A DNA stretch of 64,000 nucleotides from Candidatus Obscuribacterales bacterium (GTDB taxonomy: Bacteria > Cyanobacteriota > Vampirovibrionia > Obscuribacterales > Obscuribacteraceae): NCBI GenBank assembly GCA_020050835.1, contig JAGVKB010000142.1, forward strand, positions 186,001-250,000, given 5' to 3'. Positions 41,901-52,906 of the stretch are shown one piece after another. Within the stretch, counting starts at the first letter, position 1. Each line of letters begins with the position of its first letter. Made by a program: the position numbers and the translations under genes. The notes beneath the pieces were generated by a model. It was not told the DNA's origin. It made no database searches and saw nothing but the letters and a program-made list of their open reading frames with translations.

Positions 41901-42488
41901 TCAAAGCAACTCGCCACGACAATCCTGGCACTGCGACCGCACAATAAATTCGATCCGGTCGAACTCGTAGCCCATCCTGGCGCAGATCTGCCGCCCCACA
42001 TCATCGAGATAGTCTTGATAAAACTCAATTGTCTTGCCGCACTCGATGCAAGTGAGATGACCGTGATGGATCTCCTCTCGTCGCCATTCGTAGAAGCGCT
42101 GCCCCCCTTTGTTCAACGACAATACGAGCCCGACCGAACGCAAGCTGAGCAGCGACCGGTAAACACTCGCCTGATGTACGTTTAATCCGCGCAGTCCGGC
42201 TATCTCCGCAATCTGCTTTGCCGAAAGGTGCACGCCGTGCTCGGCCTCTTGAAGAATCGCTGACACCAATCTCATGCAGCGATTATCACTCATCTCCAAC
42301 TTGCCACCACAATCACGGTAGCTCTTTAGTGCTCGATAAGCGGCGATCGAAGTTAAATTGACACCGGCTTCCTGCGCCCTTTGCTGTAGCTCCGAAGCAC
42401 TCAGGTGAGGGCTCACTTTCAAGATCTGAAAAATTACCGACTTCTTGCTCAGCCTCCGAGAAGTTCTGTGAATGGTATGGCTTTTCAT
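41901..42488 (-). CDS. Fur-family regulator with two winged-helix modules
   Basis: The 195 residues end with a typical Fur dimerisation/metal domain: HHGH (141-144), CIECGK (147-152) and the second CxxC pair (187-190). Before it are two DNA-binding-like segments: residues about 14-60 (LSASELQQRAQEAGVNLTSI AAYRALKSY) and 73-127 (LSAKQIAEIAGLRGLNVHQA SVYRSLLSL). Ordinary Fur proteins have one and are about 140-150 residues. It lies 860 bases from a Fur-box-like palindrome that begins the PLP gene cluster, so it is the natural candidate regulator (inference). It may sense iron or another metal. Confidence 0.85.
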   Translation of the reverse strand: MKSHTIHRTSRRLSKKSVIFQILKVSPHLSASELQQRAQEAGVNLTSIAAYRALKSYRDCGGKLEMSDNRCMRLVSAILQEAEHGVHLSAKQIAEIAGLRGLNVHQASVYRSLLSLRSVGLVLSLNKGGQRFYEWRREEIHHGHLTCIECGKTIEFYQDYLDDVGRQICARMGYEFDRIEFIVRSQCQDCRGELL

Positions 42489-43314: not shown

Positions 43315-43331
43315 TTGAGAATTATTCTCAA
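43315..43331. promoter_or_regulatory. Fur-box-like palindrome upstream of the PLP cluster
   Basis: TTGAGAATTATTCTCAA is a perfect inverted repeat around a central T (8-1-8), very close to the 7-1-7 Fur consensus TGATAATnATTATCA. It lies immediately before the first gene of the plus-strand cluster, where a repressor would block transcription. A related site is at 53119-53135. Confidence 0.7.
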
Positions 43332-43344
43332 TTGCTGATTACCA

Positions 43345-46122
43345 ATGGGCGCTTGCGAAGTAAAGAGAATTGCGCCCCCCGGCATTCCCGAAGAGAACCA
43401 TTCAATAAACAAAGATATGCAAGAACTTCTAAATGGCCCTGGTATCGTCGCGAAACCTTCCGCCCTGCAAAGCAAGCTGAATACGGAAGCTACTCCGAAT
43501 TATCTCGACGATGCAGTTGACGACCTCGGCGAACTTCGGCACCTTATTAATGACTTGAGCGAGTTGTCGATCGATTCGGACGATACTGCCTCGCTGGCTC
43601 TCACCGCTGGCTCCCAAAACTGGCTCCACACAAACTTCTTGCAAGAAGTGCAGATGCTCAAATCCAGGCATCGTCGACATTTCGACCTGGTGGAGCGGGC
43701 CAGCCGCTGGGCCAGCACGAAAGAGTTCTTCTCAATTCTCGAGGCGGTTCGCAAAGAATTCCTCTCAATAAAATCGGCTCTGCGTATCGCCTATCGGCAG
43801 CGCGGAACACTACTTTGCGCATCCGACTGGCAAAGTCCGATCTACTCATCCTCGATACCGGTAGGTATCAACCGTCTATCCGAAGGCATTCAAGAGCATG
43901 TATTGGATTACAAGCGGGACGGCCACCTCGATGCTCTTGTCTACGAGCAACAATTTCTTGCAGAATATGCAAATCATTTGCAATCTCGCAACCTGACAGC
44001 CTATCTTGCCAACAGTGGAATGGGCGCCTTCGCGACGGTGTTGCACTGGTTGGCCCACGAACAAAAAATGGGATCGCAAGCACTGGCGCTTCAACCGATG
44101 TACTTCGAAAACATACATCTGGCTCGCGCGTTCTTTCCCAATCTCCTTCAGATCAGCGGTCCTTCCAGAGAAGACCTTCTAGCTTGCCTGCGGCAGCAAC
44201 AACCATCGGTTGTCCTCTGCGACGCGGTTACTAATTGTGGTGAGGTGGTCTATCACGACTTCGAAACGCTATTGAATTGGGCGAGACTCGAGTCCGAAGA
44301 GCCGACGGCAATCATTATTGATACCACCTGCTTGCCGACAGCCTGCCTGCGCTCCGGATTGTTGAATCATCTGCCCGACCACGTATCCGTCTTTCTAGTA
44401 GAGAGCTTGGCCAAATACCATCAGTTCGGCATGGATGCCGTCACCGGCGGCGTCGTCCTCATGCACGCCGAAGAGTCTTTGCAAGCGAGCTTCCGCAAAA
44501 CGCGCGCGCGCCTTGGAACAAATATCGCCGACGGCAGCGTGGGAAGCCTGCCGCGACCGAATCGCGAGCGCTTCACCAAACGCATGCGCAGACATTCTCG
44601 AAATACACGGCTTCTGTCGCAAGGATTGGAGAAGATAATCGCCGAGCAAAAGGCAATTATTGAATCAATCTCGTGGCTTTCCGAAGCAACACCGGAAGCG
44701 CCCTGGTACTACAGCTCTTGCTTGTCGCTGCGATTGCAGAAACCGTTTCGATCTGTTGTGCGTTATCAGGAATTCGAGCGAAAGGTTCTAGCACTCTGCC
44801 AGGACCGCAAACATCCAATCGCTTTCGGCACTAGTTTTGGCTTCGACGTCTCGAGACTATACGTGACCGCACCGTCCACTCGTTTCGAAGAGCCTTTCTT
44901 GCGATTATCCGTCGGCACCGAGACGGAAAATGAGATCAAAGTTTTCCTCGACATCCTGCAAGCTGCCAGCTCCGAGTTGGCACGTGCTTGGGATTGGAAC
45001 GGTTCTGAGACGGCAGCCAGCAAATCCGGCAACCGGCTTGCATTGCCTGCCACTATTTTAGAGAGACCTGGCCTTCGATCGAGCGTCTTTCTTGGAGAAA
45101 AGGCTCTGGCCGACTATCTCTGTCCGGCAAACTATGCACCGACTCCCCTCGTTGAACTCCCCGACGACTTAAATCCATTCCGGAAAGATGGCGTCAAACT
45201 CTTGGCCAAGATGATGCCGCTGGTGCCTTTGATGAATATCAAATCGCTGCCGGCATACTCCATGCTCAGTAAGGCGGCCGAGCGAGGAGAATTAAACGGC
45301 GTAGAACGTGTAATTGAAAGCTCTTCGTCCAACACGGTCTTGTCCTTGAGCGTTCTTTCCAAGCTCTTTGGTGTGGAGACTACTTGCGCCATCGTCGATC
45401 ATTCGATTGCTCCTTCGCTCATGCGTATGTTGAGACTGTTCGGCATCGAAATCTATCTGCATCCGGCCGCCGGACACGAGCAGTTCGGAAAGCTTCGCCC
45501 GCGCAGCGAGAGGGCGGCCGCAATCGGAACACATCCCGGCTGGCTCAACCCCGGACAATACACCAATCCGGACAACCCGGAAGGATTTGCGCGCTGGCTC
45601 GCACCGGACCTCTGGGCCCAAACTCAGGGCCGCTTGTCGATCTTAGTCTGCGGTCTTGGCACATGCGGCACGATGGTCGGTGTCAGCAAAGGTCTGCGTG
45701 AACGCAATCCCAACATCAAAGTGGTGGCTTGCTGCCCGCAACCTGGCGATGCCGTACCCGGACCGCGCGAGCAATCGTTGCTGAAAGACGTCTCCTTCAA
45801 CTGGCAGGAAGTAGCGGATGCTCGCATCGAATTGTCGGCTGAAGACAGCTTCGCCTCCAGCATCAAGCTGATCAGACGAGGAATTCTCGGCGGACCGAGC
45901 TCCGGAATGAATTACTTAGGTGCGCTTCGCCATCTAGAGAAAGAGAAGGAGTCCGGTCGCCTGACTGAGCTGGTCAACGCTCAGGGAGAACTATGGTGCA
46001 CATTCCTCTGTTGCGACTCGCCGTTGCCGCATGTCGATGAATACTACGACGCGCTGGGAGAGCAATACTTTCCCACAGTCCATCCCGTTCCGGAGGAAGA
46101 TCAACCGATCTTTCAAAAATAA
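43345..46122 (+). CDS. Two-domain PLP fusion: Cys/Met-metabolism type (fold I) plus cysteine-synthase type (fold II)
   Basis: The 925 residues join two unrelated PLP enzymes. About residues 130-560 have the Cys/Met-metabolism (cystathionine gamma-synthase-like) fold, with PLP lysine K357 in ESLAKYHQFGMDAVTGG and TAIIIDTTCLPTACLRSGLL before it. About 590-900 have the cysteine-synthase/SbnA-like fold: K633 in NIKSLPAYSML, substrate loop ESSSSNTVLSLSVLSKLFG, phosphate loop CGLGTCGTMVG. Each normally catalyses beta- or gamma-replacement or elimination on amino acids. The first 100 residues are helical and unrecognised. ATG 43417 is an alternative start. The next gene overlaps by one base (TAATG). 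No close natural fusion is known to me. Confidence 0.85.
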   Translation: MGACEVKRIAPPGIPEENHSINKDMQELLNGPGIVAKPSALQSKLNTEATPNYLDDAVDDLGELRHLINDLSELSIDSDDTASLALTAGSQNWLHTNFLQEVQMLKSRHRRHFDLVERASRWASTKEFFSILEAVRKEFLSIKSALRIAYRQRGTLLCASDWQSPIYSSSIPVGINRLSEGIQEHVLDYKRDGHLDALVYEQQFLAEYANHLQSRNLTAYLANSGMGAFATVLHWLAHEQKMGSQALALQPMYFENIHLARAFFPNLLQISGPSREDLLACLRQQQPSVVLCDAVTNCGEVVYHDFETLLNWARLESEEPTAIIIDTTCLPTACLRSGLLNHLPDHVSVFLVESLAKYHQFGMDAVTGGVVLMHAEESLQASFRKTRARLGTNIADGSVGSLPRPNRERFTKRMRRHSRNTRLLSQGLEKIIAEQKAIIESISWLSEATPEAPWYYSSCLSLRLQKPFRSVVRYQEFERKVLALCQDRKHPIAFGTSFGFDVSRLYVTAPSTRFEEPFLRLSVGTETENEIKVFLDILQAASSELARAWDWNGSETAASKSGNRLALPATILERPGLRSSVFLGEKALADYLCPANYAPTPLVELPDDLNPFRKDGVKLLAKMMPLVPLMNIKSLPAYSMLSKAAERGELNGVERVIESSSSNTVLSLSVLSKLFGVETTCAIVDHSIAPSLMRMLRLFGIEIYLHPAAGHEQFGKLRPRSERAAAIGTHPGWLNPGQYTNPDNPEGFARWLAPDLWAQTQGRLSILVCGLGTCGTMVGVSKGLRERNPNIKVVACCPQPGDAVPGPREQSLLKDVSFNWQEVADARIELSAEDSFASSIKLIRRGILGGPSSGMNYLGALRHLEKEKESGRLTELVNAQGELWCTFLCCDSPLPHVDEYYDALGEQYFPTVHPVPEEDQPIFQK

Positions 46123-47549
46123 TGCTGACTGCCGAATCACTGATTGCTACTGGTCGCGATTGCGCACCGCCACTGACACCGAAATTGGCGCCCTGGATGG
46201 ACCGAATTCTCCAGCAGCCGGTGGTGCTGGCTGATTGGCTGCAAAATTATGGCTCACCGGTTCACATCGTGGTCGGCTCCGAGTTCCGCAGAAACGTGAA
46301 AGACTTACTGTCACCGTTGCAACTGCGCGGTCTTTCCGGCGGCCTGTTCTTTGCACGCAAGGCCAATAAGCTGCCCTGGTTCGTCACAATGGCGAAGGAA
46401 GAGGGCATCGGCGTCGATACGGCAAGTTTGAGCGAATTGCGCGAAACTCTCCAGCTTGGAGTTCCACCACAGCAGATTGTGGTTACGGCAGTCGGCAAGA
46501 GTCGCGAGCTGATTGAGGAAGCGGTTAAGCACGGCTGCCGGATTGTGATTGACAATGACGACGAGCTAGATCTCGCAAAAGCTGTCGTGCATGAGGTCGA
46601 CAGACAAGCTCAGATCGGATTGCGGTTTTCCGGATTCATTGTTCAAGATCGCCAAGTCTTCAGTCGATTCGGACTGCCGGTTGCCGATGCTCACAATCTG
46701 GTTGATAGCATAAGAGAAGAATCGCTGCTAAACCTAGACTTTCTGCACGCCCATCTCGATCGCTACGATCTGGACGAGCGAGCATCGGCAGCCAGACAAA
46801 TGCTGGCCATAGCCGATTATGCCAACAGTCGCGGTCATAAGATAACCAGCATCGACCTGGGTGGTGGCATCTTGATGCGTTATCTGGACAACGCCTCTGA
46901 GTGGGAATCATTCAAGGATGCCTTGCTATCTTCCGTGCGTGAAGAACGTCCTTACTTCACTTATCTGAACGATGGTCTTGGCTACATGCGGGCTGGCAGC
47001 GAAATAATCGGACGAGCCGACCTCTATCCAGCCTGGAATTCGATCTCGAAAGAGAGATTCATCTCTGCCATTTTGGATCATCAACTGGACGGGATGCCAT
47101 TGCACAAGCAGTTTTCAGACCGAAAGCTGAAGCTCTATTTCGAGCCCGGCAGAGCGCTCCTGGACAATACCGGGATGACGGCTACAAGAGTCACATTTCG
47201 CAAGCGAGACACGCTCGGCAATCTACTGATCGGTGTCGCCATGAATCGCCTGAATCTTCGCCCATTTCGGGCGGAATTTTGTTCTGACCCCTTCTTCCTC
47301 TCGACTGATTCAAGGATGCCGATTACTGAAGGCGCCTTTCTTGTGGGTAATCTCTGCTCCGAAAGCGACCTTATCTACCGCAGAAAACTTCGCCTGGGCA
47401 CACTGCCGATGCCGGGAGACACAGTCTGTTTCGCCAATTCGGCCGGTTATCTGGCCCATCACATGGAGATTGGTACTCACGGTGATCCCTTGCCGCAGAA
47501 CCTTCTGATCTGTGCCGAGAATTGGCAAGTATGCGACTCTTTAGCGTAA
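46122..47549 (+). CDS. PLP-dependent amino acid decarboxylase, fold type III (DapDC/ODC/SbnH-like)
   Basis: A 475-residue alanine-racemase-fold enzyme of the LysA/ornithine decarboxylase group: PLP lysine K80 in LFFARKANKLPWF, TASLSELRETLQLGVPPQQI, DLGGGI phosphate loop, EPGRALLDNTG and CSESD in place of the CxxxD active-site loop. HAHLDRYD replaces the more usual HxHxGS. SbnH of staphyloferrin B and diaminopimelate decarboxylase share this fold. It probably decarboxylates an amino-acid-derived intermediate made by the fusion enzyme. One-base overlap with the preceding stop gives translational coupling. Confidence 0.9.
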   Translation: MLTAESLIATGRDCAPPLTPKLAPWMDRILQQPVVLADWLQNYGSPVHIVVGSEFRRNVKDLLSPLQLRGLSGGLFFARKANKLPWFVTMAKEEGIGVDTASLSELRETLQLGVPPQQIVVTAVGKSRELIEEAVKHGCRIVIDNDDELDLAKAVVHEVDRQAQIGLRFSGFIVQDRQVFSRFGLPVADAHNLVDSIREESLLNLDFLHAHLDRYDLDERASAARQMLAIADYANSRGHKITSIDLGGGILMRYLDNASEWESFKDALLSSVREERPYFTYLNDGLGYMRAGSEIIGRADLYPAWNSISKERFISAILDHQLDGMPLHKQFSDRKLKLYFEPGRALLDNTGMTATRVTFRKRDTLGNLLIGVAMNRLNLRPFRAEFCSDPFFLSTDSRMPITEGAFLVGNLCSESDLIYRRKLRLGTLPMPGDTVCFANSAGYLAHHMEIGTHGDPLPQNLLICAENWQVCDSLA

Positions 47550-47564
47550 TCGGGGCTGGCTATC

Positions 47565-48335
47565 ATGGTTAATCGACAACAACGACTCAAAGTAATTGAG
47601 GGCAATCAGCAAGAGACTGGCGGCAACTCAAGACAACCGGTAGCAGTCGTGACCGGCGCCGGCAAAGGTATCGGCCGTGCCCTGCTGGAAGAGCTGCATG
47701 CCCGCGGTTATCTCGTTGTGGCGGTTGTTCGAAGCCTCGCCGACGTGCGCGAACTCTTTTCGCTGGCTCCGCAACACATCCTTCCCATCCGCTGCGATGT
47801 CACAGAGCCGTCCACCGAAGTCGTGCTGAAAGAGTTTCTCGAATCGCAAGTAGGAACGATCGATCTGCTGATCAACAACGCCGGCTTTGGCGCCACCGGA
47901 TACGGTATTACCGGGCTGGATTTCAAAGAGCTCGACAATGTTCTGGCGGTTAGTTGCTATGGTCCCATTCGTTGCGTTCGTGCTTGCTTGCCGTTCATGA
48001 AAGCGTCGTCGCGAGCAACTATCATCAATATGTCCTCACGCTTCGCCTCGCTGGAATGGGTGGCGAGCGGCGCTGTTCCGCACGAGCAAGCGACCTATCC
48101 ATATCGCATTGCCAAAGCCGCAATGAACATGTTCACATCATGCCTGTCGATCGAATTGAAGGGCTCGGGCATCCGCGTTCTATCAGTCGATCCCGGCAAA
48201 GTCAAAACCAGATTCGGTCCAAGAGACGCCGACGTCGAACCAGCGGACGCCGCCAAAGCGATTGTCGACTTGGCAGAAAAAAATGTAGATACGGGAATCT
48301 TTGTGCATGCCTCAGGAGAGAAGTTACCATGGTAG
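47565..48335 (+). CDS. Short-chain dehydrogenase/reductase
   Basis: The 256 residues are classical SDR: TGAGKGIG (30-37), the NNAG motif in DLLINNAGFGATGYG, active-site serine in INMSSRFAS and the YxxxK signature in ATYPYRIAKAAMNMF, followed by VDPGKVKTRFGP. It uses NAD(P)H to interconvert a carbonyl and alcohol. It follows the decarboxylase by 15 bases and its stop overlaps the next start (ATGGTAG). In the cluster it may reduce or oxidise an intermediate. Confidence 0.94.
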   Translation: MVNRQQRLKVIEGNQQETGGNSRQPVAVVTGAGKGIGRALLEELHARGYLVVAVVRSLADVRELFSLAPQHILPIRCDVTEPSTEVVLKEFLESQVGTIDLLINNAGFGATGYGITGLDFKELDNVLAVSCYGPIRCVRACLPFMKASSRATIINMSSRFASLEWVASGAVPHEQATYPYRIAKAAMNMFTSCLSIELKGSGIRVLSVDPGKVKTRFGPRDADVEPADAAKAIVDLAEKNVDTGIFVHASGEKLPW

Positions 48336-49468
48336 ATCGCCTCTGGTCCGTTAAAGAAAAAAATGAGCCGTTCGTCCTTCCTTCTTTTGAGACGATCAGT
48401 TTCTCCTTACCGTCAATGAGTAATTGGGAAGAGCTGATCAAGGGCGAGTCGGACGGATGGGTCTATTTGAGCGATGGCAATCCGACCTTATCGGCGCTGG
48501 AACGCCTATTGGCCAAAATTCAAGGCGTCGAAACTTGCTGGGTAACCAGCACAGGCAAGTCGGCGATCGCCGCTACATTGCTCGCCTTGCTAAGCGCCGG
48601 CGATCACATCATCCTCCTGCGCGAAGGATACAAATCAACGCGACTGTTTGTCGAAGGAACTCTTCAACGCTTCGGAGTGTCGGTTACTTTGATCGGAGTC
48701 GATGACGTAAGAAATCTTCCCGACTTCATTCAACCCGGCCGCACCAAAGTGCTGGTCTTGGAAGCGCCGACCAATCCAATGACGCGAGTTCCTGACCTTA
48801 ACTATTGCACCGCCATCGCCCGCGAGCACGAAATCACAACTGTGCTCGACAATTCACTGGCCGGCTTTCACCAGCACGGCGAGCTGCCAGTCGACCTGAT
48901 CGTCCACAGCCTTTCCAAGTATGCCTCCGGAGTCGGCGACGTCATGGGCGGCGCCGTGCTCGGCAGCAAAGCGAATGTCTCGCTGGTCAAATCGAGAAAT
49001 GTCTGGAACACAGACGCAATGAGCACGCACGCAGCCGTTGAGCTGTGGAAAGGGATGCAAACTTACACATTGAGGATTGAGCGCCAATCCTCCAACGCAC
49101 TGGCGATTGCGCGTTTCCTCGAGAAGCATCCGCGCATCAGCCGTGTCTTATATCCTGGACTGGAAAGCCATCCCGATCACCTGGTGGCAGCTCGCCAGAT
49201 GAAGGACTTCGGCTCTGTTCTGGCTTTCGACGTGAAAGACGGCTCGCAAGCGATGCGTGAGACGCTCGACAAACTGAAAGTATTCAGAATTGCCTTTGGC
49301 ACCGGCTTCACTCAATCGATCGCCAATCCAGCCTGGTTATTCTATGCGCGCTCGTTCCCTGAAACGCAAACTGGACTTTCAGCCATATCCGACAATACTA
49401 TTCGATTGTCGGTAGGCATCGAGCCACCGGACGAGCTAATCGCCGACCTCGAACAAGCGCTTCGCTAG
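48329..49468 (+). CDS. Cys/Met metabolism PLP-dependent enzyme (cystathionine gamma-synthase/lyase-like)
   Basis: The 379 residues, starting at ATG 48329 inside the end of the SDR gene, match the Cys/Met-metabolism family: STGKSAIAATLLALLSAGDH, EAPTNPMTRVPDL, the PLP lysine K197 in HSLSKYASGVGDVMGGAV, and the C-terminal DNTIRLSVGIEPPDELIADL. Its lysine region resembles that of the fold-I half of the fusion protein. It could catalyse gamma- or beta-elimination or replacement, building a C-N or C-S bond. GGAG precedes the start. It is a core cluster gene with overlapping neighbours. Confidence 0.9.
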   Translation: MVDRLWSVKEKNEPFVLPSFETISFSLPSMSNWEELIKGESDGWVYLSDGNPTLSALERLLAKIQGVETCWVTSTGKSAIAATLLALLSAGDHIILLREGYKSTRLFVEGTLQRFGVSVTLIGVDDVRNLPDFIQPGRTKVLVLEAPTNPMTRVPDLNYCTAIAREHEITTVLDNSLAGFHQHGELPVDLIVHSLSKYASGVGDVMGGAVLGSKANVSLVKSRNVWNTDAMSTHAAVELWKGMQTYTLRIERQSSNALAIARFLEKHPRISRVLYPGLESHPDHLVAARQMKDFGSVLAFDVKDGSQAMRETLDKLKVFRIAFGTGFTQSIANPAWLFYARSFPETQTGLSAISDNTIRLSVGIEPPDELIADLEQALR

Positions 49469-49480
49469 TAGCATCTGACA

Positions 49481-50788
49481 ATGCCGGTAACCTTACCAGA
49501 TGCTTCACTCGAAGCCAATCTATCCATGCTCGATGATCTCGAGCTGAACTCCTGCGACGTCTGGATTCTGGGCGGCGGCATCAGCGGTTTGACGACGGCG
49601 ATTGTCCTGCAATCACTCGGACTGAAACCGGCAATTCTCACTGAATCCGCACCGGGAAAATTCTCCCACCAGCAAGACCCGCTGGTGCCAACTGCTTATG
49701 CGATGGCTTCGGCATATCCGCACAATCTGCGCGTCTTTGAGCTCAATCGCATCAGTGACGATTCGCAGGCGGTATTCGGACAGCTTTGCCGGCAGCCATC
49801 CGCCGGTGTCAGGCTTTATCAGATGTTTGAAGTCTTCGAGCACCAACCTGACACGGCAGCTCTCGGCATGAATCGCCTGAACTTTCAGCTGTTCGATGGC
49901 AAACCAGCCCAGTTGAAAAATTCTGTCGCCCCGCCCTGCCGTCCCGGCGCAGAGTACCTTTGGGGTTGGACTTTCCAGACCTACTTCGCAGATATGCCGC
50001 TCTATCTCAAATATTTGTGGTCGCGATTCCAGGAACGGGGCGGAACGCTTAGACTGGGCAAGCTCTCAGTTGAAACTATCCTCGCTGGTCGCTTCGACAA
50101 GCCACTTGTAAATTGCCTGGGATTGGGAGCGGTCGCCGCCTTTTGCGACCGATCTCCGGCAAACATCATGCGCGGAAGGCAGGTTTTAGTGCCAGGCGCG
50201 CCGGTAGTTACAAACAACAACGGCTTGCCGGTCGCCTACAATTACACACCGCCGGTTGAATTTTTCGCTCGCTACGATGGCTTGCCAGAGTACGTACACT
50301 ACTTTCCGAGAGAGGACGGCTGGTTATTAGGTCAAACGCGCGAACCAGGATCGATGGACGAAAAAGGAACGTGGCACGGCAAGGCGGTCTCTTCTCAACA
50401 GATCTTAATCGGCGGTCAAACGATCCCAGCTCCAATCATCGATCTCAACTCCTCGCTCTTGAAGAATTGGCTTGGCCTTGAATTCAGCCGGGATAACTTG
50501 GTAGCGCGCACCGGCTACCGCTATTATCGCGATCCCGACGACACCGGCGTCAAGCTCGACACAGCAGTTCTTGACGGAGTACCGATCGTTCACAACTACG
50601 GACACGGCGGTTCTGGCGTAACGATGTCCTGGGGCTGCTCTGTCCAATGCGCGCGCTTGCTGGAACAATATGTTGGGCTCAAAAGAAATCCGGCAGACGG
50701 TCTCGAGCAAGCGATCGTGCAACTGTTGTCGGAGCCGAGCGCCGCTGCTGCGACTTCGCTACCGCTCGCTCAACCATCTGCCAGGTAG
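49481..50788 (+). CDS. FAD-dependent amino-acid oxidase (DAO family)
   Basis: A 435-residue D-amino-acid-oxidase-type flavoprotein. The FAD-binding loop VWILGGGISGLTTAIVLQSL lies near residue 27-46. The C-terminal motif VHNYGHGGSGVTMSWGCSVQ is the D-amino/D-aspartate-oxidase signature. It oxidises an amine to an imine or acts as a dehydrogenase. A shorter homologue is at 53884. It is 12 bases after the PLP gene and six bases before the MOSC gene. The oxidase versus dehydrogenase assignment is open. Confidence 0.88.
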   Translation: MPVTLPDASLEANLSMLDDLELNSCDVWILGGGISGLTTAIVLQSLGLKPAILTESAPGKFSHQQDPLVPTAYAMASAYPHNLRVFELNRISDDSQAVFGQLCRQPSAGVRLYQMFEVFEHQPDTAALGMNRLNFQLFDGKPAQLKNSVAPPCRPGAEYLWGWTFQTYFADMPLYLKYLWSRFQERGGTLRLGKLSVETILAGRFDKPLVNCLGLGAVAAFCDRSPANIMRGRQVLVPGAPVVTNNNGLPVAYNYTPPVEFFARYDGLPEYVHYFPREDGWLLGQTREPGSMDEKGTWHGKAVSSQQILIGGQTIPAPIIDLNSSLLKNWLGLEFSRDNLVARTGYRYYRDPDDTGVKLDTAVLDGVPIVHNYGHGGSGVTMSWGCSVQCARLLEQYVGLKRNPADGLEQAIVQLLSEPSAAAATSLPLAQPSAR

Positions 50789-50793
50789 CAGCC

Positions 50794-51609
50794 ATGTCTA
50801 TCGCTACTATCACCGGTCTCTTCTCCTACCCGATCAAGTCTTGCGCGGGCACAGCAGTAGCTGAGGCAGAGTGTGACGATTTTGGAATCAAGTACGACCG
50901 AGCCTGGGCCCTCGTCGACTCAGACCGCACAATTCTCACCCAGAGAAACCAACCTCGGATGGCGCTCATTCAGCCAACAGTCAACCAGGATGGCTCTCTC
51001 TTGCTGGAAGCCCCGAATATGATACCACTTACGGTATCACCCATTGCCGAGAATCGGCAGCGACTCAGCCTCAAGGTTTGGGCCGACGAAAGCGCCGGAT
51101 TCGATCAAGGGGACGAGGCCGCGGCCTGGCTCACAGCATTTCTGGGCGTATCTTGCAGACTCATGTGCAACGACCGCGAGTTTACCCGCCTTACGAAACT
51201 GACAAAACCAAATGGCGAAAGTGCAAGAGTCGCCTTCGCTGACGGCTATCCGCTCCTGGTCATCTCGCAAGAAAGTCTGACTGACTTAAACGATCGTCTG
51301 GAAAACCAGGTTCTCATGAGCCGCTTTCGGCCCTCAATTGTCTTAAGCGGCTTGGGTCCTTACGGAGAAGATCGCTGCTCGCAGCTCAGCTCGCCGGAGA
51401 TCGTTCTGCATGCAGCCAAACCATGCCCACGCTGCGTTCTTATAACCATCGATCAAGAAAGCGGAGCCACCAGTGCTCCTGAGCCGCTTAGAACTCTCAG
51501 CAATTATCGCCACAACGGAGAAAAGGTGCTTTTCGGCTACTACTTTCTGCCTGACAGTCCCGGCGACTTGCGTGTCGGTAACACGCTGAGAGCGAACCTG
51601 AGAGCCTGA
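50794..51609 (+). CDS. MOSC domain protein (YcbX/MOSC-N type)
   Basis: A 271-residue protein from ATG 50794: N-terminal MOSC_N beta barrel (ITGLFSYPIKSCAGTAVAEA, RAWALVDSDRTILTQRNQPR) and C-terminal MOSC domain (FADGYPLLVISQESLTDLND, FRPSIVLSGLGPYGEDR, HAAKPCPRCVLITIDQES). The cysteine in PCPRC can coordinate molybdenum, as in YcbX and mARC, which reduce N-hydroxylated compounds. Within this cluster an N-oxide or hydroxylamine reduction is plausible but unproven. It ends the plus-strand gene run, before the convergent transporter. Confidence 0.9.
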   Translation: MSIATITGLFSYPIKSCAGTAVAEAECDDFGIKYDRAWALVDSDRTILTQRNQPRMALIQPTVNQDGSLLLEAPNMIPLTVSPIAENRQRLSLKVWADESAGFDQGDEAAAWLTAFLGVSCRLMCNDREFTRLTKLTKPNGESARVAFADGYPLLVISQESLTDLNDRLENQVLMSRFRPSIVLSGLGPYGEDRCSQLSSPEIVLHAAKPCPRCVLITIDQESGATSAPEPLRTLSNYRHNGEKVLFGYYFLPDSPGDLRVGNTLRANLRA

Positions 51610-51640: not shown

Positions 51641-52555
51641 TCAAGTGCCTTGAACGCGATCCCGACGATCCGCCACGAGCGGAATGAGAGCAGCCGACAA
51701 ACTGGCTGAAACAGCTGCCAGAATCACCAGCGGATAGTACTGGTTATGAAAGACGTGGGTGAACAGATTGCCACCGATGAATGTGGAGGATTCAATTGCG
51801 AAATTGCGGACAGACAGCAAAATTGCCATGACAGATACTTCGGCATGGCGCGGACAAGAATCGGAAGTCAGCCCATACAGTGCCAGCAAAGCGATCATGG
51901 CGGAAGTGCCTCGGAAGAACTCGATCAAAATTGCAGAAGAAAAGTCGGTCAACATAAGATAGGTCAGAGTACTGATAGAAACAAGCGCGACTCCCAGGCA
52001 CAACTGAGCTTTGATGGTCATGTTCTTAACCAGGCGCCGGTAGACAAATGCCCCCAATACCATGCCGGCAGCCATCCAAGCGCTAAGCTGCCCGATGTTC
52101 TCTTGTGGTATCCCTAAGGTTTTCGATTCGTAAAAGTATAGCGGCACTCCAAAGGCCGGTGCAAAATTCCAGAACCACCCAAACAAAGCTACCATCCAGA
52201 GCGAGGGCGATCTGGCTGCTTGTTTAAAAGACTCGAGCGTATCTCGCATTTTCTGCAGGTCGATCTTGGCTTTCGGCTCCTTAAGCATGATCGAGCCCAA
52301 GATTGAAATTGAGAGAACCGGTATCATCGCCACGCCAGCAGCAAGATGCAGAGCCATGGTAGCACTCAGGTGTTGACACAACAAACCACCGACGACAGCC
52401 GCTACGATATTTGCGCTGTAGTAACAGAGCGCCTGATCGCTGAAGTATTCTCTTGCCTTGCCGTCGCTGCGACCCTGTTCGGCAGCCAATCCCACCATCA
52501 ATGCGGTCGACATGGACATGCCCATTGCAATGAACAGGAGGCAGCCTAGCACCAC
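51641..52555 (-). pseudogene. MFS/BT1-type transporter, C-terminal part after in-frame stop
   Basis: This reading frame continues directly from the gene at 52556-52906, separated only by TAA (52556-52558). It codes about eight or nine hydrophobic helices (MGMSMSTALMVGLAAEQG, SLWMVALFGWFWNFAPAFGVP, MAAGMVLGAFVYRRLVKNM). The full-length product would be a 421-residue transporter. This part could start at the GTG right after the stop, but there is no ribosome binding site and the protein would lack its first helices. Nonsense mutation, sequencing error or readthrough are possible. Confidence 0.75.
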
Positions 52556-52906
52556 TTACAATGCATTGGTCCAAACCATAACAAAGTAAGCAAGTGCAGT
52601 CAGTAAATTCGCAACGATTACATAACTCTTTCGTCGATATCCAAATAATGGGACGAAATCACAGACCATCCCGACAAGCGGCTTGAGCACCCAGGGAAGC
52701 ATCATAACCGCCAGATATGAAGATATTTGAGCGGCGGTCAGATTCAAGCCCTTCATCATGAAGTATTGAATTGGCTGAGCGATCAATCCAAATTGCGTCG
52801 CTATCCCATGCGAAAAATAGGCAACAGCAAAAAACACCGAAAGAGTGCCGACATCGGTCAACTCATGATTGTGAGTTGGGACCGCTTTTGTCGTCGCTAA
52901 AGTCAT
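52556..52906 (-). pseudogene. MFS/BT1-type transporter, N-terminal part ending at in-frame TAA
   Basis: The 116 residues hold the first three to four helices of a folate-biopterin (BT1)/MFS transporter: VFFAVAYFSHGIATQFGLIA, then KPLVGMVCDFVPLFGYRRKS, where KPLxGxxxDxxPxxGYRR is the BT1 loop signature. It breaks at LTALAYFVMVWTNAL followed by TAA, while codons on both sides continue the transporter. As the only transport gene in the cluster, it probably moves the product or an analogue. It overlaps a 67-residue upstream frame by four bases (ATGA). Confidence 0.8.

Follow-up and report, generated by a model that had tools for sequence, protein, structure and literature searches.

In the staphyloferrin B system, SbnA and SbnH bring together a fold-type-II PLP enzyme and a fold-type-III PLP decarboxylase under metal control. 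Among the closest known systems for the locus described here are two fungal enzymes. Aspergillomarasmine A (AMA) synthase adds O-phosphoserine successively to Asp, yielding AMA, which binds Zn, Co and Ni (PMC8319579). Fda4 of Fusarium poae, a relative of AMA synthase with a rhodanese-like domain, joins OPS and L-Ala; release or completion of L-Dap after the Fda4 step needs the FAD oxidoreductase Fda3, for which no in vitro activity was demonstrated (PMC12751119).

A stretch of 64,000 nucleotides from the genome of a Candidatus Obscuribacterales bacterium, an uncultivated relative of the cyanobacteria, is referred to here as the window. Behind a conserved Fur-type operator-like site, it encodes a conserved fusion protein that contains a bacterial relative of aspergillomarasmine A synthetase. 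The fusion gene is laid out as follows:

43345-46122, + strand: fusion gene, 925 aa, one uninterrupted frame
43492-43824, + strand: helical N-terminal extension, residues 50-160; predicted helices, 32% mean identity
43825-44985, + strand: fold-type-I Cys/Met-type domain, residues 161-547
44986-45084, + strand: linker between the domains, variable in sequence and length, residues 548-580; mean identity 14%
45085-46077, + strand: fold-type-II domain, aspergillomarasmine-synthetase type, residues 581-911

A sequence-only reading of this DNA had claimed that two evolutionarily unrelated PLP folds are joined here in a single 925-residue frame without stop, with both motif sets intact. Indeed, the frame is open throughout, ESLAKYHQFGMDAVTGG contains K357 and MNIKSLPAYSML contains K633, the PLP-binding residues are complete in either half and conserved in the fusions, and comparison of the fold of each half bears out the two unrelated folds. 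The actual start of the protein is probably M25 (ATG 43417), judging from its alignment with the starts of the relatives; the first ATG (43345) is located just 14 nt beyond the operator-like site.

The full-length fusion is also present in five further Candidatus Obscuribacterales genomes (56-63% identity), and all PLP residues of both halves are invariant across the fusions of the six genomes. Within the family, it was detected in 6 of 50 genomes and in 4 of 24 genera, the genus tally referring to the better genomes of the family. A scan of species genomes with peptides of the N-half returned four of the same Obscuribacterales loci. Searches with the whole fusion protein against IMG/VR yielded no close relative. 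A literature search retrieved no description of any fold-type-I/fold-type-II PLP fusion. The genome is a draft of 154 contigs, and an artefact of assembly or binning joining two genes, which the sequence-only reading had named as a concern for the joining region, had to be considered. However, fusion, order and operon are identical in six genomes and the position of the linker is conserved. Moreover, the variable linker (14% mean identity among the fusions) sits between two conserved halves (57% for the type-I half and 70% for the type-II half), which excludes an artefact. This explanation was accordingly rejected and its probability is practically negligible.

Analysis of the type-I half required more than a domain search. 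The Pfam family Cys_Met_Meta_PP (PF01053) matched residues 182-426 only weakly, that is with 24.4 bits as compared to a curated cut-off of 27, and its identity therefore needed other proof in the form of a structure comparison. In the AlphaFold2 model of the whole chain, most of the type-I half is good, with blocks mostly at pLDDT 80-93. This half aligned with cystathionine gamma-lyase over 332 residues at 3.4 A (VIA-align Z 26.9), and the best solved type-I matches (Z 24-27) comprised cystathionine gamma-lyases, methionine gamma-lyases, cystathionine gamma-synthases and the gamma-lyase CndF. The Cys/Met fold is settled by this comparison. The key residues are K357 (44413-44415), Y189/R191, S224-G-M, Y253, D326 and R520; the corresponding elements, i.e. 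YxR, SGM, Tyr, Asp, SxxK and the Arg before GxE, can be aligned with those of a canonical enzyme encoded elsewhere in this genome and are kept in the fusions. A profile of the N-half found no match among PDB sequences, and there was no close characterised relative. In the tree, the type-I half groups with a stand-alone 621-aa protein from a further genome of the phylum (G108) and the second half of an 852-aa Pseudomonas protein, apart from the Cys/Met enzyme of the operon and the CGL-type enzyme of the genome. The sequence-only reading had suspected that the fused half differs from the Cys/Met gene nearby, and the tree places them in separate subfamilies (100/100 split). The stand-alone relative (L037:4702-6567) shares 29% identity with the type-I half; it has no Pfam match and no operon genes around it.

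The type-II half is recognized more readily, with a clear Pfam PALP match at residues 597-869 (E 1.2e-36). Its features include K633 (45241-45243), SSSSNT, GLGTCGT, PSSG and CCDSPLPHVDEYYDALG. In sequence searches, the fungal PDB entries 8h4q/8h4h scored well above every cysteine synthase, and a profile search of PDB sequences ranked them first with 256 bits vs 106 for the next entry. One of the pair is entitled ‘The apo structure of Aspergillomarasmine A synthetase’, and the title of the other names this enzyme together with OPS. The identity to 8h4h/8h4q is 36% over 342 residues and includes the C-terminal signature CCDxPxPxVDEYxDxLG, which lies outside the PALP core, beyond the usual PALP domain. 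K633 corresponds in the alignment to the NNVK lysine of 8h4q, and GLGTCGT represents the PLP phosphate loop. The whole-chain model left the C-half mostly at pLDDT under 50, and the C-half was folded alone, giving a pLDDT of 88. This model matched 8h4h with Z 41.7, the next match being Mtb CysM, an OPS-dependent enzyme (Z 35.0). In the tree, the type-II half and 8h4q form one clade with a support of 100/99, to be read with caution in view of long branches. The earlier label ‘cysteine-synthase type’ fails in the narrow sense: the type-II half belongs with fungal aspergillomarasmine A synthetase, not with plain cysteine synthase or CBS. A rhodanese domain behind the type-II domain gave no Pfam match, the chain ending soon after the type-II domain, and for this reason we refrain from assigning the protein to the AMA synthetases. 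By analogy, the best reading is that the type-II half may work like AMA synthetase without being classed as one. A plasmid search at 1e-20 revealed no close relative of the C-half, and 386 genomes of the phylum contained none at 1e-35 except for the own genome.

The two fold types are identical to those of CBS and CGL, as would be expected if the protein were a fused reverse-transsulfuration enzyme consisting of CBS and cystathionine gamma-lyase. However, all NCBIfam equivalog cut-offs for cystathionine beta-synthase and cysteine synthase were missed by far (cysta_beta 80 vs a cut-off of 510), and the own genome carries a separate CBS-type/CGL-type gene pair on contig C86. On these grounds, a transsulfuration fusion was rejected and we consider it very improbable. 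Membership in the SbnA family was likewise rejected, as the model TIGR03945 scored 109.5 bits vs a cut-off of 349.95.

A relative of the type-I half also occurs in a fusion outside the Obscuribacterales. The Pseudomonas amygdali pv. aesculi plasmid pCOR1804 encodes an 852-aa PLP fusion (L054:7447-10005, WP_005730260.1) that likewise combines type-I and type-II domains, and the type-I halves share 27% identity (1e-23). However, the order is reversed, i.e. type-II/type-I, and the type-II half is threonine-dehydratase-like; therefore, the type-I subfamily seems to have been paired with type-II domains more than once. The Pfam PF01053 score of this relative is 32.9 bits (cut-off 27). A GNAT-like gene follows the Pseudomonas fusion, and a broken relative is found on a P. 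syringae plasmid (L055:7448-10809).

The fusion opens an operon, whose genes and neighbours are:

46122-47549, + strand: fold-type-III PLP decarboxylase-like protein (DapDC/ODC family), Orn_Arg_deC_N 3.8e-24; 6/6 loci
47565-48335, + strand: SDR oxidoreductase, adh_short 4.1e-35; 6/6 loci
48329-49468, + strand: separate Cys/Met-type enzyme of the same operon; 6/6 loci
49481-50788, + strand: DAO-type FAD oxidoreductase, DAO 4.2e-17; 6/6 loci
50791-51609, + strand: MOSC-domain protein; 3/6 loci
51641-52906, - strand: BT1-family MFS transporter, its frame broken by an internal stop codon (in frame) near 52558
53436-53774, + strand: thioredoxin-like [2Fe-2S] ferredoxin-like protein, weak Pfam match
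53884-54849, + strand: second DAO-type oxidase (D-amino-acid/D-aspartate oxidase like), 6rkf 1.7e-26

All six loci have the same order of fusion, fold-type-III decarboxylase-like gene, SDR, Cys/Met enzyme and DAO-type flavoenzyme. The start of the decarboxylase-like gene overlaps the stop codon of the fusion (TAATG). The separate Cys/Met enzyme is the best-conserved operon gene (71-83%); despite this top conservation, it carries YLS in place of YxR (YLSDGNPT) and TGK in place of SGM (TGKS). The first DAO-type protein is distant from D-aspartate/D-amino-acid oxidases (6rkf 2.4e-13), and the second one is also present in L025, L026 and L029. In the loci L025 (two copies), L026 and L029 of relatives, the MFS transporter is intact; owing to the in-frame stop in its copy in the window, the pathway may or may not be in use in this strain. 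The ferredoxin-like frame ends in a lysine run (KKKKKKKR). An encapsulin shell protein (Linocin_M18, 3.8e-54) is encoded near the operon at 56020-56871 (-) of the window, and MocR-type regulators (GntR plus aminotransferase-like) are located near two operons (L026:14880-16583 and L028:12879-14408). The genes scanned included neither a TonB receptor nor an NIS synthetase, an NRPS or an opine dehydrogenase.

Three elements point to regulation of the operon:

41901-42488, - strand: Fur-family regulator, divergent from the operon, FUR 2.3e-20
43315-43331, no strand assigned: perfect palindrome TTGAGAATTATTCTCAA of the 7-1-7 Fur-box type upstream of the operon, 0 mismatches
53119-53135, no strand assigned: second operator-like site TTGATAATAATTCTCAA, 1 mismatch, between the MFS and ferredoxin-like genes

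By expectation, 0.34 sites of the 7-1-7 type with at most 2 mismatches would occur per window. The exact sequence TTGAGAATTATTCTCAA is found in the 7.0-Mb genome at 43315-43331 only, and each of the six loci has a similar site immediately in front of the fusion gene. When up to two mismatches were allowed, the 17-mer occurred at five places of the own genome, two of which are in this locus, as compared to 0 for a reversed-pattern control; some of the five sites are near an IS element or have no clear target. In the relatives, operator copies are present 321 and 391 bp upstream of Fur-family genes and close to ferredoxin-like genes (19 and 34 bp). A Fur-family gene adjoins the operon in three of the six loci (window, L025 and L029), and a flavodoxin gene adjoins the operon of L025. 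As judged from sequence, this arrangement supports control of the operon by a Fur-family protein, and Fe, Ni, Co and Zn are candidates for the metal sensed. Operator copies also precede other genes: a NicO-type nickel transporter (L064:2500-3462, genome G011) follows one at a distance of 148 bp, and a GCS2-like carboxylate-amine ligase and an MFS transporter (L058:45-2481, genome G026) are located directly behind another, perhaps representing another metal-controlled biosynthetic pair.

The ferredoxin-like and flavodoxin genes close by would also suit a response to iron starvation or redox state within sulfur metabolism, with both halves forming or cleaving C-S bonds so that cysteine, persulfide or sulfide becomes available to Fe-S or thiol chemistry; sulfur amino acids are the usual substrates of both enzyme families. 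However, the nearest kin of the C-half is a C-N bond-forming enzyme, and the operon is devoid of a sulfur carrier or desulfurase, making this explanation improbable. Our preferred interpretation, which we hold with about even confidence, is that the fusion is a bifunctional PLP enzyme at the head of a Fur-family-controlled operon, whose product would most likely be a Dap-containing or aminopolycarboxylate metallophore. Weighing against it are the missing rhodanese domain, an N-half with no close characterised relative, the in-frame stop in the MFS gene of the window and the absence of the TonB receptor, NIS synthetase, NRPS and opine dehydrogenase from the genes scanned.

In the pathway that we infer, K633 would bind PLP and convert O-phosphoserine (or O-acetylserine) to an enzyme-bound aminoacrylate, to which the amine of an amino acid may add, generating an N-(2-amino-2-carboxyethyl) amino acid as in the reactions of AMA synthetase and Fda4. 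K357 would bind PLP in the type-I half, allowing a second step, that is a Cys/Met-type beta- or gamma-substitution or an elimination, acting either on the product of the type-II half or on its partner substrate. The decarboxylase, the SDR, the second Cys/Met enzyme and the DAO-type oxidase may subsequently trim and oxidise the product, which the MFS protein could carry across the membrane. The end product would be made under metal scarcity. Substrate channelling between the two PLP sites, which the sequence-only reading had taken to follow from the fusion, is plausible, since both the fusion and the fact that it is conserved make it a reasonable supposition.

Alternatively, the fusion may supply L-2,3-diaminopropionate or a related amino acid as a building block for something other than a metallophore, e.g. 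an antibiotic, an osmolyte or a cell-wall part, with metal control being incidental. Indeed, Fda4 and Fda3 supply Dap to a peptide and not to a chelator (PMC12751119), and another PALP protein occurs in an NRPS cluster of Streptomyces globosus. Conversely, the operon lacks assembly genes such as an NRPS or a ligase, and the operator-like site is kept in 6/6 loci; hence, we regard such a role as possible but rather unlikely. The Streptomyces protein (L045:9959-12235, on a plasmid) consists of a PALP domain followed by an apparent ATP-grasp-type region, and kinase and NRPS genes are adjacent.

If the product of the operon is a chelator, as in the preferred interpretation, an uncultivated lineage would provide a new bacterial route to a metallophore. 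More speculatively, and we put this forward with considerable reserve, the operon may stand for a new class of bacterial metallophore pathway that draws almost entirely on PLP enzymes from three folds and uses neither NRPS nor NIS synthetase nor opine dehydrogenase. Here, the two unrelated PLP sites of one chain would make two C-N bonds on one passed intermediate, and the pairing would have arisen at least twice, i.e. in Obscuribacterales and in Pseudomonas. The two-site chain lends itself naturally to testing transfer between unrelated PLP sites.

Comparison with known systems places the locus between several of them. The type-I half resembles the cystathionine gamma-lyase/methionine gamma-lyase/CndF family in its fold and in all PLP-binding residues, but shares only ~18% identity with it, forms a clade of its own and remains under the Pfam cut-off. 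As in staphyloferrin B biosynthesis, a type-II PLP enzyme is accompanied by a type-III PLP decarboxylase with a Fur-type site upstream; in contrast to that system, no NIS synthetases or SbnB were seen in the operon and the SbnA cut-off was missed. With fungal aspergillomarasmine A synthetase (8h4h, 8h4q), the fusion has the type-II catalytic domain, the C-terminal signature and the lysine in common, whereas it possesses an N-terminal type-I PLP domain instead of the rhodanese domain of AMA synthetase and Fda4. Finally, as in the fungal L-Dap module Fda3/Fda4, an FAD oxidoreductase is encoded beside the type-II enzyme, a DAO-type gene being present in 6/6 operons, and it is the recurrence of this pairing that leads us to favour C-N bond formation.
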